From positions 1 to 62,280 of IMG/VR virus record IMGVR_UViG_3300046507_000576: a stretch of 62,280 bases of DNA; one strand, written 5' to 3'. The notes below the pieces were generated by a model that was given only the letters and a program-made list of their open reading frames with translations, had not been told where the DNA came from and made no database searches. Positions within the stretch are counted from its first letter, which is position 1, and each line of letters starts with the position of its first letter. The position numbers and the translations under genes were made by a program. Source of the stretch: a virus. Below, piece by piece: positions 6,370-51,241 of this stretch.

Positions 6370-6391
6370 GAGGGGCATTCGTGCCCCTCCC
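6370..6391 (+). terminator. Hairpin with TTCG tetraloop
   Basis: GGAGGGGCA pairs perfectly with TGCCCCTCC around TTCG. There is no T-run, so it may stabilise the 3' end or space two genes rather than terminate. Confidence 0.5.
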
Positions 6392-6413
6392 CCTCCCCCA
6401 GGAAGACACGAGA

Positions 6414-6833
6414 ATGAGCGACAAGAATCTCCCCCACCAGCGTGACGTCATCGTCGTCGCCCTGGAGCAAGCCCTGGCCGACCACGCCGGCAACCCCCTG
6501 AAGACCACGATCCAGCTGATGAGTGACCTCGTCGAGGCGTACTCCAGCCGCGAGCTGGTCATCGTCTCCGACCGCGTCGAGTCCCTGCGCGAGGGCGTCG
6601 TGGTGTGGCTCAACACCCACGTGGACTACTACCACGAGGTCGTCATGCGCCCCATGACCATGCACACCTCGGCCGCAACCCTCATGAAGGCCCGCATCGA
6701 GTCCGCCGGCGCTCCTGGCAGCCGCATGCCCCTGCCCAGCCGCGTGCTCTGCGCCTTCGACAGTCGCCCCGAGATGCGCACCGTGTGGGCCGACTACGGC
6801 GTCCCCTGCTACCTGACCCCGGGGGTCAAATGA
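6414..6833 (+). CDS. Hypothetical protein
   Basis: 139 aa, mostly helical, charged and without Cys-rich motifs. An AGGAAG precedes the ATG; an upstream in-frame ATG at 6381 lies inside the hairpin-adjacent C-rich run and lacks a ribosome site. Ends in ATGATG overlap with the next gene. Confidence 0.5.
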   Translation: MSDKNLPHQRDVIVVALEQALADHAGNPLKTTIQLMSDLVEAYSSRELVIVSDRVESLREGVVVWLNTHVDYYHEVVMRPMTMHTSAATLMKARIESAGAPGSRMPLPSRVLCAFDSRPEMRTVWADYGVPCYLTPGVK

Positions 6834-40540: not shown

Positions 40541-40975
40541 CTACGGGTGCTTGGTGACCGCCTTCAAGACGTCCCATGCGCTGTGACTGGGCGGAAGGAC
40601 GGCCAGTGCCTCGAGCTCCTGCTCGGTCGGCGGGTTGGCCTCGAGCTCTCCAATGTACCGGCCCGGCACCAGGTACTTCTTTAGGGTCTTGCCGATGCCC
40701 ACCCTTACATATAACCAGTGGTTTCCATTTGCACGCATGCGCTTCCGGTGGTAGATGACCTGGGACTTGCGGATGCCCAGGTCGATCGCCGTGGCCGGGT
40801 GTGCCGGCCGGTCGGTTCCCTTGAGTTCGATCTCAAAGTACCAGCCCAGGTAGCAGCCGTCCACGTCCGGGTCGCCCGATCCCACCTGGTTCTCGAGGCG
40901 GCGGTAGTGAAGCTGGAGGCCGATAGGCTTCCAGCCCTCACGGAGGAACTCCCAAAGCCTGGACTCACGCGCCAT
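40541..40975 (-). CDS. PD-(D/E)XK nuclease-like protein
   Basis: 144 aa. VGSGDPDVDGCYLGWYFEIELKG supplies the G-PD...ExK core (Asp, Glu, Lys) and is followed by IRKSQVIYHRKRMRANGNHWLYVRVG, the Q-helix and strand of VRR-NUC/RecU-type folds. Probably cuts structured or damaged DNA, such as recombination junctions. Overlaps the DHFR-like gene end by 11 bases. Confidence 0.7.
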   Translation of the reverse strand: MARESRLWEFLREGWKPIGLQLHYRRLENQVGSGDPDVDGCYLGWYFEIELKGTDRPAHPATAIDLGIRKSQVIYHRKRMRANGNHWLYVRVGIGKTLKKYLVPGRYIGELEANPPTEQELEALAVLPPSHSAWDVLKAVTKHP

Positions 40976-41444
40976 GGTTCACCCCGCTGTACAAGTTAAC
41001 ATAGACTTCGCCCAACTTGATGCGGTGGTGGCAGTCACGATCAAGCTTGTTCAGCAGGGGCTCGACCGAGATGCCCCCACCAAGACGCGCTGTCGTCTGG
41101 CACAGCACGACCTGCTCCACCAGGTTGGCGTCGAGCGCGGCCAGCACGACGTCCAGCCCACCGATGAGCCACGCGTCTCGGTGCGCCCAGGCCGCCTCCT
41201 GGAGCGTGATGCCCTTGTGGTAGGTCCGGCTGATGGCGACCACCTCGCGGTCCGCCAGCTTCGGCAGCAGGTCCGCCGTGCGACGGCCTGCCAGCACCTT
41301 GTGCGAGCCACCCGTCAGGGTGAGCAGGCGAAAGATGCCCTTGTCCGTCTGCCCGGTCCACTCCATGCGGTCTTCCGGCCCGCGCGCGACGAAGCCGTCG
41401 CCCGACACCGCCATCAGCACCTTAAATCCCAGTCCCTTTGCCAT
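40965..41444 (-). CDS. Dihydrofolate-reductase-like protein
   Basis: 159 aa of DHFR/RibD-C fold: KVLMAVSGDGFVARG at the start, VLAGRRTADLLP, VVAISRTYHKGITLQEA and DAWLIGGLDVVLAAL, the GG-nucleotide-binding turn. Reduces folate if it is a true DHFR, which a reductive ThyA-type methylation needs. It sits two genes from the ThyA-family enzyme. A RibD-like reductase is the alternative. Confidence 0.7.
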   Translation of the reverse strand: MAKGLGFKVLMAVSGDGFVARGPEDRMEWTGQTDKGIFRLLTLTGGSHKVLAGRRTADLLPKLADREVVAISRTYHKGITLQEAAWAHRDAWLIGGLDVVLAALDANLVEQVVLCQTTARLGGGISVEPLLNKLDRDCHHRIKLGEVYVNLYSGVNHGA

Positions 41445-41445
41445 G

Positions 41446-41916
41446 CTACAGTCCTTCCATGTGAGTAATTTGTACGTGGGCGTGCCTCAGCTCGCCCAGT
41501 GCGTGGATCCAGCTCTCGCCCCACCGCAGGTGGCCGAGGTCGGGCCTGGGCGCAACCACGTGGGAGATGCCGGACCTGAGGATCCATTCTACGGCGCACT
41601 GCTTGCACGGGAACCTCGTGATGTAGATGGTGCACCCCCGCGGGTTGAACGGCGCCTGGGAGATGCAGTTCTCCTCGGCGTGCACCACCATCTCGAGCTT
41701 CAGCGCCTTGTCCTCGAGCAGGTCAGGGCGGTCCGGGAAGTCGGCGGGGAAGCCGTTGTAGCCGATGGAGATCTGGCGCTTGTCCTGGGACACGAGCACC
41801 GCGCCCACCTTCCTGTCTGGGTCCTTCGACAGGAGGGCAGTGCGGACGGCCAGGTCCATGAAGTAGCGTTCCCAGTCAGACTGGGGGCGCTTGAACTGGG
41901 CCGGGTCCTGCATCAT
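41446..41916 (-). CDS. dCMP/dCTP deaminase-family zinc enzyme
   Basis: 156 aa, ComEB/dCMP deaminase type. Catalytic HAEEN and zinc-binding PCKQC are both intact; VGAVLVSQDKRQISIGYNGFP is the substrate-side start. Converts dCMP to dUMP. Start overlaps the stop of the ThyA-family gene (ATGA), so both are made together. Confidence 0.88.
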   Translation of the reverse strand: MMQDPAQFKRPQSDWERYFMDLAVRTALLSKDPDRKVGAVLVSQDKRQISIGYNGFPADFPDRPDLLEDKALKLEMVVHAEENCISQAPFNPRGCTIYITRFPCKQCAVEWILRSGISHVVAPRPDLGHLRWGESWIHALGELRHAHVQITHMEGL

Positions 41917-42752
41917 TCCACCACGGAGGGGCGGGGGTTGAAGGCAGGCCACTCGTGGTGGTTCTGGGCGGCAACCATCATGCCGACGTACGCGTCCATG
42001 CGGGTCTCGACCTCCTCGACCGTCCAGCGGGGCATGTACAGCTCGGGCACGACTGCGCGCTGGGTCACGGCCTCCTCTGCCATGCCGTAGTGGTCCTCGT
42101 AGAGGTGCGCGTGGCAGATGGCCACCTGCATGACGCCCAGGCGCACGCCGATCGACGCGGCCATGGAGGCCATCAGGAGCGCGTGGCCCATGACGTCGTA
42201 CGGCAAGCCCACGAAGATGTCGGAAGAGCGCAGGGTCATGGTGGAGTGGAGCTCCCCGCCCTGCACGTGAAAGTTGAAGGCGACCGGGCACGGCACATTG
42301 CGCTGGCCGACCTCGCCAAGTCCGTCGTCGGCAGGGTCCCACGCGGACACGTACACCCGGCGGTCGGAAGGGTCGGACTTCAGGGCGTCGATCGCCAGCT
42401 GGATCTGGTCACGGCCGAAGTGCTCACGCCAGCGGTAGCCGTAGGCCGACTTGATCGTCTTGCCGTCGGCCTCCACGAACTTGTCCCAGAAAGGCGCGTG
42501 CTGACGCATCCAGGTGACGTCCTGGACGCCCGACAGATACCACGCAACCTCGGCTGCGGCCGACTTCGGGAAGGTCTTACGGAGCCCGCAGGTCGGCAAC
42601 ATCTCGTCGCTCAGGTCAAGGCGGAAGGAGGTGCCACCACGGCCCACGCGCACCTTGCGGGCAGTGCGGCCGTTCGCCTCCTCCGGGGAGTTGAGCGCCC
42701 AGAGCAGGAGGTTGCGGTAGATGTCAGCGAAGGGGATGGAGAAGCCTTTCAT
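41913..42752 (-). CDS. ThyA-family dCMP methylase/hydroxymethylase candidate
   Basis: 279 aa, complete ThyA fold: catalytic Cys C155 in VPCPVAF, RSSDIF (R175-D178) and HLY (H216, Y218). The residue that reads the pyrimidine ring is Asn in thymidylate synthases (GLPFN in E. coli) but Asp here (GLPYD, D186). In T4 dCMP hydroxymethylase that position is Asp, and the same change turns a thymidylate synthase into a dCMP methylase. So the likely product is 5-methyl- or 5-hydroxymethyl-dCMP, not dTMP. Plain thymidylate synthase remains possible. Confidence 0.75.
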   Translation of the reverse strand: MKGFSIPFADIYRNLLLWALNSPEEANGRTARKVRVGRGGTSFRLDLSDEMLPTCGLRKTFPKSAAAEVAWYLSGVQDVTWMRQHAPFWDKFVEADGKTIKSAYGYRWREHFGRDQIQLAIDALKSDPSDRRVYVSAWDPADDGLGEVGQRNVPCPVAFNFHVQGGELHSTMTLRSSDIFVGLPYDVMGHALLMASMAASIGVRLGVMQVAICHAHLYEDHYGMAEEAVTQRAVVPELYMPRWTVEEVETRMDAYVGMMVAAQNHHEWPAFNPRPSVVE

Positions 42753-43504
42753 GCTGCCACCTTCACTTCTGCCTGGCGGTCCATCCACTCGCAGTAGAAG
42801 GCGCCGTAGTTGACGAGGTCCCGCACGGTGTCGCGGATGCCCTCGAAGTTGGGCTCCCTGCCCTCGGACATGGACTTGACCAGCGACATCAGGCGCAGGC
42901 CCTTGGTGTGCATCATATGGGCATAGCTCTGGTGCCCGAAGGGGAAGTATGCGTCACGGCCGCCGGGGACGTTGTTGTAGTCGGCGCCCTTGGCCGCACG
43001 CAGGGCCGTGATTTCCTGGAACACGGGGCTGAGCTCGGTGATGGCCCGGGCGTAGCCAAGGTCGGCCAGGCTGAAGCTGAGGAGCCAGCTATGATCCGGG
43101 GCCTTCCAGCCCTCGGGCTTGATGGCATCCGTGCCGCCCCAGCCTTTGCGCTTGTCAAGGTCCCCCGGTATCTTGGCCATGTTGGCCTTCTGGACTGCGT
43201 CGAAGACCGCCTTGGCGGGGACGCCCATTTCGGTGAGGCGCCCCAGCAGAAAGTAGACCGCGTCGATGATGGCGTCAGCTGCCTCAGCTACGTTCCCTTC
43301 CCGGCTAGCCTTAATAAGCTCGCCCATCTCTTCATCGACTGCGTCTTGGGCTCTTTGAGCTTCAGCTTCGGTCAAGACTCGGGGGCTGGGGGGCAGCACA
43401 ACACCCCGCACCTGCGTGTTAAAGCGTTCGACGCCAGCGTGCATGCTGCACACCACGTCAAGGATCAGCGGGTCGCTTGCGCTGAGGGTCTTTTGGTTGG
43501 TCAT
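42749..43504 (-). CDS. MazG-type NTP pyrophosphohydrolase with DUF1599/Nmad1-like domain
   Basis: 251 aa. Residues ~45-115 are an all-alpha pyrophosphohydrolase with the metal-binding EExxE (58-62) and D77/D81. Residues ~165-245 (KGADYNNVPGG..., RLMSLVKSMSEGREPNFEGIRDTVRDLVNYGAFY) resemble DUF1599, which I recall being named a nucleotide-modification-associated domain. This fusion next to a dCMP-type ThyA enzyme suggests removal of an unwanted nucleotide such as dCTP. Confidence 0.7.
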   Translation of the reverse strand: MTNQKTLSASDPLILDVVCSMHAGVERFNTQVRGVVLPPSPRVLTEAEAQRAQDAVDEEMGELIKASREGNVAEAADAIIDAVYFLLGRLTEMGVPAKAVFDAVQKANMAKIPGDLDKRKGWGGTDAIKPEGWKAPDHSWLLSFSLADLGYARAITELSPVFQEITALRAAKGADYNNVPGGRDAYFPFGHQSYAHMMHTKGLRLMSLVKSMSEGREPNFEGIRDTVRDLVNYGAFYCEWMDRQAEVKVAA

Positions 43505-43985
43505 CTTTCAGGCTCCGTTGGTTGGCTAGGTACCAGAGGAGCTTGCCGTCTGTCGGCTGGACGTTGGTCCGCCCCTCTATGAATATCGCCCAGCTGTCCG
43601 CTGCGTACTTCCCGCAGCCGGGCAGCCGGTAGACGTCCATAGTACCTCGGGGCCCCGAGTCCCGCAACCAACCTTGAGCCATCCCGACCAGACTAATGGC
43701 CCGGCGCCTGAACAGCCCGAGTGGCTGGAGTATGGGGTGCAAGTCCTCGGGCTGGGCCAGAGCCAGGTCGGCTATGGCGGGGTAGCGCTCGCGCAGGGTC
43801 TCGAGTGCGGGCTCTGCCTGCTGCCAGGTCGTGAGGTTGACCAGGGAGCAGGCAACGAGCATCCAGAATGGCTCCGAGCGGAGAGTCTCCTGAAAGAGAA
43901 AGCCCGAGACCGGCTCGGGCTTATTCCAGTGCTCGATGAAGAGGAGCCGTCCCCTGCGGACGACCTCCCATCGGTCGGTCCTCAT
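43458..43985 (-). CDS. MBD4-like HhH DNA glycosylase
   Basis: 175 aa. EPFWMLVACSLVNLTTW, LQPLGLFRRRA, the helix-hairpin-helix LPGCGKYAADS (121-131) and catalytic QPTDGKL (D146) line up with human MBD4, which removes T or U opposite G, i.e. deaminated methylcytosine. Lacks the FeS cluster of EndoIII. The last ~15 residues overlap the start of the next gene. Fits a genome with methylated cytosine. Confidence 0.75.
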   Translation of the reverse strand: MRTDRWEVVRRGRLLFIEHWNKPEPVSGFLFQETLRSEPFWMLVACSLVNLTTWQQAEPALETLRERYPAIADLALAQPEDLHPILQPLGLFRRRAISLVGMAQGWLRDSGPRGTMDVYRLPGCGKYAADSWAIFIEGRTNVQPTDGKLLWYLANQRSLKDDQPKDPQRKRPADP

Positions 43986-44206
43986 GTCCTGTGCCCAACC
44001 TCCCTCAGCAGCTTCTTGACGTCTCCGACCGCACGCATGGCGGAGAACACGTTGTCGGAGGGCGAGCGGGAGCAGCTCTTGTACATCTGCCGCCCGTTGA
44101 CCTCCCAGACGACGCGGTCGTGCTTGTGGCCGCCCTCGGCCTTGGCCTTGATGCCCACGCCCTTGAGGTACTTGATGACCTCGTCACGTACCCAGGTGCT
44201 GGCCAT
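43982..44206 (-). CDS. HicA-like small protein
   Basis: 74 aa from the ATG after GGAGGTGGCTA. VIKYLKGVGIKAKAEGGHKHDRVVWEVNGRQ is a helix-strand-strand pattern with a central GGHKH, like HicA/double-stranded RNA-binding folds, followed by SPSDNVFSAMRAVGDVKKLLREVG. Function unknown. TAATG and ATGA junctions tie it to both neighbours. Confidence 0.45.
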   Translation of the reverse strand: MASTWVRDEVIKYLKGVGIKAKAEGGHKHDRVVWEVNGRQMYKSCSRSPSDNVFSAMRAVGDVKKLLREVGHRT

Positions 44207-44427
44207 TAGCCACCTCCACATAAGGACACGACATTGGCAAAATCTTCTCGGTCAAACTCATGCCAGCCGTGAGACTCCGTCAAGTGCAGGGCATCAAACT
44301 GGGCTAGCACTTTAGTTGGCACGGTTGACGGACGAATCAAGCAGCCGTGAAAGCGAAGGCGGTTATTGTCCCCATCGTATATTGCCTTAGACAGACAGGT
44401 TATTGGAATCAGCCGGGCATAAGTCAT
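44206..44427 (-). CDS. Hypothetical protein
   Basis: 73 aa after a strong GAAGGAGG. Mixed alpha/beta composition with three Cys and three His. GC is slightly lower than its neighbours. Stop and the next start share one base. Unrecognised. Confidence 0.45.
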   Translation of the reverse strand: MTYARLIPITCLSKAIYDGDNNRLRFHGCLIRPSTVPTKVLAQFDALHLTESHGWHEFDREDFANVVSLCGGG

Positions 44428-50779: not shown

Positions 50780-51241
50780 CTATGCCCCGAACTGCACCGC
50801 CAGAGACAGCTCCCGAATGCATTCGGCGGCAACGGCGCACTGCTGGAGGCTCATCCAGGCCACGTGCACCTCCTCCCAGGGAGGGACACCCATGCGCTCG
50901 GCCAGCAGCGCGTAGGCCTCGGACCTGGACATCAGCCCAGACTCCCAGATGGGGTCCAGGAGCTCGTGCATCTGCCGCCTGGCCGCCTTCGTCTGCCGGT
51001 CCGCCATGATCCCCATAGGGAAGACTGAGAACGGGTGGCAGCCTGTCGACGCCTCGCAGCTCAGGCAGTACCACACGACGGGCCACTTGCCCTGGTTGGA
51101 GCCGTAGAGGACGCGGTTCTGTACCAGCACGGCCGGCCCGCCGCAGCAGTCACAGGCCTTGGGCGGGTCGCGCCACTCGGGGAACCTTTTGCGGTGGTTG
51201 CAGGGCCGGGTGACGGCCTCCCGCAGTGCCTTCTCAGGCAT
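50780..51241 (-). CDS. DUF3268-like zinc protein
   Basis: 153 aa. CDCCGGPAVLV...YCLSCEASTG forms a zinc ribbon and FPMGIMADRQTKAARRQMHELLDPIW the helical block typical of the DUF3268 zinc-finger-containing family. Function not established; these proteins occur in phage replication clusters. Confidence 0.7.
   Translation of the reverse strand: MPEKALREAVTRPCNHRKRFPEWRDPPKACDCCGGPAVLVQNRVLYGSNQGKWPVVWYCLSCEASTGCHPFSVFPMGIMADRQTKAARRQMHELLDPIWESGLMSRSEAYALLAERMGVPPWEEVHVAWMSLQQCAVAAECIRELSLAVQFGA

Follow-up and report, generated by a model that had tools for sequence, protein, structure and literature searches.

The window analysed here is a virus record of 62,280 bases (IMG/VR virus record IMGVR_UViG_3300046507_000576), the whole of which is meant wherever the term is used, and all coordinates count from window position 1. 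The subject is a candidate cytosine-modification system, namely a run of five open reading frames on the minus strand (43985-40965) that encodes, in this order, an HhH-GPD glycosylase, a MazG-type protein, a ThyA-family enzyme, a deaminase and a dihydrofolate reductase (DHFR). The nucleotides concerned are deoxycytidine mono- and triphosphate (dCMP, dCTP) and the corresponding deoxyuridine and thymidine phosphates (dUMP, dTMP, dTTP).

A five-gene module on the minus strand

43458..43985, minus strand: MBD4-like HhH-GPD glycosylase, probable T:G DNA glycosylase (175 amino acids; MBD4 matches by sequence and by AlphaFold2 (AF2) model)
42749..43504, minus strand: MazG-type nucleoside triphosphate (NTP) pyrophosphohydrolase with a candidate Nmad1-like C-terminal domain, probable dCTP-to-dCMP step (PF01503, PHROG 18404)
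41913..42752, minus strand: Asp-type ThyA, probable dCMP C5-methyltransferase (5-methyl-dCMP synthase) (279 amino acids; PF00303, Asp186)
42195..42197, minus strand: codon GAC for Asp186, the pyrimidine-specificity residue of ThyA (by alignment)
41446..41916, minus strand: deoxycytidylate-family deaminase, probable 5-methyl-dCMP/5-methyl-dCTP deaminase (PF00383, W132)
40965..41444, minus strand: dihydrofolate reductase (PHROG 13578; AXL1 homologue)

Start and stop codons overlap as ATGA at three junctions (gp79/HhH, MazG/ThyA and ThyA/deaminase), which gives the run an operon-like arrangement, and the glycosylase and MazG genes share 47 bases. Since the module recurs across related phages, in over 30 genomes and contigs, a chance arrangement is excluded.

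Relationship to Xanthomonas phage Xp12

The nearest named relatives of the window include the Bradleyvirinae phages Donnerlittchen, Elanor, DoCa5, AXL1, DLP4 and PaMx74, and by sequence comparison the window phage groups with this subfamily, to which Xanthomonas phage Xp12 (genus Bosavirus) also belongs (PMC11946847). In Xp12 DNA, 5-methylcytosine (5mC) was found at 100% of the cytosines by liquid chromatography–mass spectrometry (PMC7653180); infected cells have a dCMP methyltransferase (PMC8543423), together with a deaminase that acts specifically on 5-methyl-dCTP and yields dTTP (PMC12088426).

YB23 served as the stand-in for Xp12, whose own record is MT664984. Both published Xp12 primers for the quantitative polymerase chain reaction match YB23 with zero mismatches, the two genomes measure 63,787 (YB23) and 63,783 bases (Xp12), and the YB23 deaminase has Trp at 128, the position quoted for XP-12; a pattern search of IMG/VR did not find the Xp12 primer pattern. 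YB23 holds all five module genes, ordered as in the window.

The ThyA-family enzyme

The window ThyA matches PF00303 with E=2.9e-43. In an alignment with E. coli ThyA and T4 gp42, it retains the catalytic residues E68, W89, Y104, R131/R132, C155, R175, D178, H216 and Y218, while Asp186, encoded by GAC at 42195-42197, aligns to Asn177 of the E. coli enzyme and to the Asp of T4 gp42. Both the complete catalytic set and the Asp had been claimed in an earlier note made from the letters of the sequence, and both are borne out. An Asn177Asp exchange makes thymidylate synthase prefer dCMP over dUMP and form 5-methyl-dCMP, and an Asp at this position is a marker of contigs whose cytosine is modified (PMC8670742).

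This residue follows the module closely. Asp occupies the Asn177 position in all 26 aligned sequences from module-bearing phages (window included) and in the further IMG/VR module contigs wherever ThyA is readable; in 25 of 25 viral ThyA loci that are more distant and show no other module gene, the residue is Asn. The window enzyme, lacking the Asn at 177 of a canonical thymidylate synthase, scores under every NCBIfam thymidylate synthase cut-off, and neither a second ThyA nor a ThyX or a C5-methylase was found in the window. For the pair formed by the window and its nearest relative, the gene has a ratio of non-synonymous to synonymous substitution rates (dN/dS) of 0.16. Taken together, the sequence comparisons point to a probable dCMP C5-methyltransferase making 5-methyl-dCMP. 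The RcRudolph ThyA carries the public label “ThyX-like”.

Deaminase, MazG-type protein and dihydrofolate reductase

The deaminase matches PF00383 (E=7e-19) and retains the zinc motifs HAE and PCxxC; its profile matches include human DCTD and the chlorovirus PBCV-1 dCMP/dCTP deaminase 7fh4, which acts on both mono- and triphosphate. Its invariant Trp132 corresponds to XP-12 Trp128, a stacking residue proposed to contact the 5-methyl group (numbering and proposal of PMC12088426). By analogy, the enzyme probably turns 5-methyl-dCMP/dCTP into a thymine nucleotide and thus supplies thymine, because the window holds no dUMP-type ThyA and no ThyX. In one module carrier (L033:4882-6932), other small genes lie between ThyA and DHFR, and no recognisable deaminase is present there.

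The MazG-type protein matches PF01503 (PRA-PH/MazG; E=1.5e-14) and PHROG 18404 (E=1.6e-97), its best profile match in the PDB being the MazG-like NTPase DR2231, and a dCTP-to-dCMP step is its probable function as judged from these matches. Matches to DUF1599 (PF07659) stayed below the cut-off: one of 16 MazG homologues reached E=0.015 and one more E=0.012, with none in the window protein. The AF2 model, with a predicted local distance difference test (pLDDT) score of 58, was too poor for a structure search. In the MazG proteins of L060, L062, L064, L065, L033, L048, L051 and L052, all of them outside the close group of the window, MazG is fused to a P-loop domain, which, in those scanned, matches deoxynucleoside monophosphate kinases (PHROG 139); going by these matches, the fused domain may be the missing 5-methyl-dCMP kinase. 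Public records of L034-L049 call the MazG gene “HAD superfamily hydrolase” and the glycosylase “endonuclease III” or hypothetical.

The DHFR belongs to PHROG 13578 (E=1.1e-44) and has a homologue in AXL1 with 39% identity, which confers trimethoprim resistance on E. coli (PMC9206674).

These results bear on several claims of the earlier note. Its proposal of 5-methyl-dCTP synthesis and repair of its decay is supported in its core and agrees with Xp12, a relative with 100% 5mC, and its argument that a DHFR is needed only for a reductive methylation is strengthened by the functional AXL1 enzyme. Two parts need correction: of the proposed MazG protein with an Nmad1/DUF1599-like domain, the MazG assignment stands and the Nmad1 part is weak, with sub-threshold matches in two homologues only; of the proposed dCMP deaminase, the family stands and the role is probably not just the generic one, as the Xp12 enzyme and the conserved Trp point to 5-methyl-deoxycytidine nucleotides. 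The note had also left the likely role of the deaminase unexplained and had not named the relatives that already show the system.

The MBD4-like glycosylase

The first gene of the run encodes an HhH-GPD family protein (E=4.1e-6) for which the earlier note had proposed a likeness to MBD4. This holds at several levels: the best sequence matches in the PDB are all MBD4 (E=1.7e-12), the next family being Mig.Mth (E=0.021); a profile of 20 glycosylase homologues matches MBD4 at 3.7e-23 versus endonuclease III at 6e-12; and with the AF2 model (pLDDT 78, core above 90) the first 16 PDB matches in Foldseek are all MBD4, with template-modelling (TM) scores by target of 0.81-0.88. Residues Q32, N50, L91, Y127, D146 and K148 align with Q449, N467, L508, Y540, D560 and K562 of human MBD4, so that the catalytic Asp (D560) and the pocket residues Gln449, Tyr540 and Lys562 all have their counterparts.

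The catalytic Asp is retained in 19 of the 20 homologues, the match of the remaining one (L069) stopping before that residue, and Tyr127 is invariant among them. In AXL1 it is Asp144 that aligns to the catalytic Asp, and not the Asp141 that the AXL1 paper had guessed. The dN/dS of the gene, again for the window and its nearest relative, is 0.32. It had no match in the defence-system library, and a search of the open-access literature gave no report of an MBD4-like glycosylase in phages.

The gene occurs in four named phages and 18 IMG/VR contigs, so that all carriers seen are viruses. It was not found in GTDB bacterial and archaeal genomes by a pattern scan with two profiles, which distant members may escape. 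Wherever a glycosylase carrier has a complete ThyA, the latter is Asp-type (21 of 21, i.e., 16 contigs, the four named phages and the window), and across 17 genomes glycosylase divergence tracks ThyA divergence (Mantel r=0.83, p=1e-4). The most distant MBD4-like genes, on contigs L068 and L069, are accompanied by an Asp-type ThyA of divergent sequence and by a C5-cytosine DNA methylase, which in L068 (6001-7895) lies directly downstream of the glycosylase; such a methylase is absent from the other 16 glycosylase contigs and from the window.

Proposed pathway and alternative explanations

By analogy with the Xp12 nucleotide pathway, the operon likely replaces cytosine by 5-methylcytosine before polymerisation. 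The MazG-type enzyme would split dCTP to dCMP, which the Asp-type ThyA, with methylene-tetrahydrofolate as the donor, would convert to 5-methyl-dCMP—here the residue is seen and the reaction presumed—while DHFR would restore tetrahydrofolate. A kinase, probably that of the host in this case, would complete 5-methyl-dCTP for the phage polymerase, and the deaminase, to judge from Xp12, would divert part of the 5-methyl-dCMP/dCTP pool straight to thymine nucleotide. The polymerase would then put 5-methylcytosine throughout the genome in place of cytosine, so that many restriction enzymes would be blocked, and the MBD4-like glycosylase would excise the T from T:G mismatches left by deamination of 5-methylcytosine.

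Several observations weigh against this interpretation or parts of it. A dNMP/5-methyl-dCMP kinase gene was sought in the window and not found. The glycosylase has Leu51 where MBD4 has its wedge or intercalating Arg468, and it is missing from many module carriers (e.g., Elanor, DLP4 and PaMx28), so that it is accessory and not essential to the system. The window enzyme, like that of YB23, lacks the PVAI with which E. coli ThyA ends, and an Asp-type ThyA can also be a T4-like dCMP hydroxymethylase, in which the methylene intermediate is hydrated and not reduced; residues alone do not tell the two apart.

If the latter were the case, the DNA would hold 5-hydroxymethylcytosine or a derivative thereof. 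The Asp is common to T4 gp42 and the window ThyA, and both lack the C-terminal residues with which the E. coli enzyme closes its active site; however, at the C-terminus and in the active site the YB23 enzyme agrees with that of the window, and in Xp12 DNA 100% of the cytosine is 5mC. Furthermore, DHFR, which only a reductive methylation requires, accompanies the module in most carriers, and no glucosyltransferase was seen among the scanned window proteins, a scan that covered part of the genes. We consider hydroxymethylation improbable. Still less credible is an ordinary thymidylate supply (dCMP to dUMP to dTMP) with an incidental Asp and unmodified DNA, even if deaminase, ThyA and DHFR form the classic set for it and the AXL1 authors annotated their genes in this way: the Asp is invariant in module carriers, the ThyA stays under the thymidylate synthase cut-offs, and neither the chemistry of Xp12 nor the restriction resistance of AXL1 DNA fits such a route.

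A further explanation leaves 5mC synthesis as proposed and concerns the HhH protein, which might remove uracil or another lesion, or bind DNA without catalysis. Members of the HhH-GPD fold have many substrates, the wedge Arg is replaced by Leu, and the AXL1 authors saw no canonical active-site motif and proposed Asp141 at low confidence. This is possible but rather doubtful, given that the aligned catalytic residue, Asp144 in AXL1, is kept in 19 of 20 homologues alongside the invariant Tyr127, that MBD4 is by far the best match, that the glycosylase is strictly tied to genomes with an Asp-type ThyA, and that its dN/dS is 0.32. On sequence and structural model, the role with the best support is repair of the T:G that deamination of 5-methylcytosine leaves, and we lean towards it with reserve.

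Neighbouring genes and other loci

40541..40975, minus strand: downstream gene of the same operon, nuclease-like, PHROG 2165 label “DNA helicase” (adjoins the module in nearly all relatives)
43982..44221, minus strand: small conserved gene upstream of the glycosylase, with which it has an ATGA overlap (PHROG 2053, E=4.6e-8)

Elsewhere in the window, the minus strand encodes a DUF3268 zinc-finger protein (50780-51241) whose match to the restriction alleviation protein Lar stays below threshold, and an open reading frame on the plus strand (6381-6833) matches PHROG 415, a family of phage polynucleotide kinases (E=7.5e-9). No large chain of a ribonucleotide reductase was found in the window; YB23 and AXL1 each carry one.

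Significance

Descriptions of the fully methylated DNA of Xp12 reportedly go back to 1968, and those of two of its enzyme activities, dCMP methylase and 5-methyl-dCTP deaminase, are said to date from 1982 at the latest. As late as 2022, a paper on a close relative termed the genetic mechanism of the modification unknown. The present comparison suggests specific genes for each step of an Xp12-type pathway, by which a whole phage subfamily, and phages beyond it, become likely 5-methylcytosine phages. If the glycosylase acts like its relatives, viruses have met the mutability of 5-methylcytosine with the enzyme family that animals use, and enzymology and sequencing methods could draw on them for dCMP methylases and for thymine glycosylases of small size.

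Comparison with known systems

The nearest counterpart is Xp12, which, judged from YB23, has glycosylase, MazG, Asp-type ThyA, deaminase and DHFR in identical order, and which is reported to have an ENDO3c gene in common with AXL1. In contrast, the ThyA of YB23 is only 56% identical to that of the window. The Stenotrophomonas phages AXL1 and DLP4 have the same operon as the window. AXL1 has the glycosylase and a DHFR shown to be functional, and most restriction enzymes whose sites contain G/C fail to cut its genomic DNA (AXL1 paper), for which its authors left the mechanism open; DLP4 differs in having no glycosylase. T4 gp42, the dCMP hydroxymethylase, is likewise of the ThyA family with Asp at the pyrimidine-specificity position, but it makes hydroxymethyl-dCMP and is very distant in sequence, and T4 has glucosyltransferases.

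Mig.Mth of Methanothermobacter is a G:T mismatch glycosylase of HhH-GPD type tied to a methyltransferase that makes 5mC. It resembles the phage protein as a thymine glycosylase of this fold, but its match is far weaker than that of MBD4 (0.021 versus 1.7e-12). With animal MBD4, the phage glycosylase has in common the fold and the equivalents of Asp560, Tyr540, Lys562 and Gln449; it differs by the lack of a methyl-CpG-binding domain and by Leu for R468, and T:G is its putative substrate.

The nucleotide system itself is thus not new: the operon is common to the Xp12 group, and the window phage is probably a new representative of the Xp12 type. What is new is the putative link between glycosylase repair and 5mC phages, which, carrying their own MBD4-type thymine glycosylase, would—in a reading that we find somewhat favoured by the evidence—possess a viral equivalent of the repair that MBD4 performs in vertebrates.

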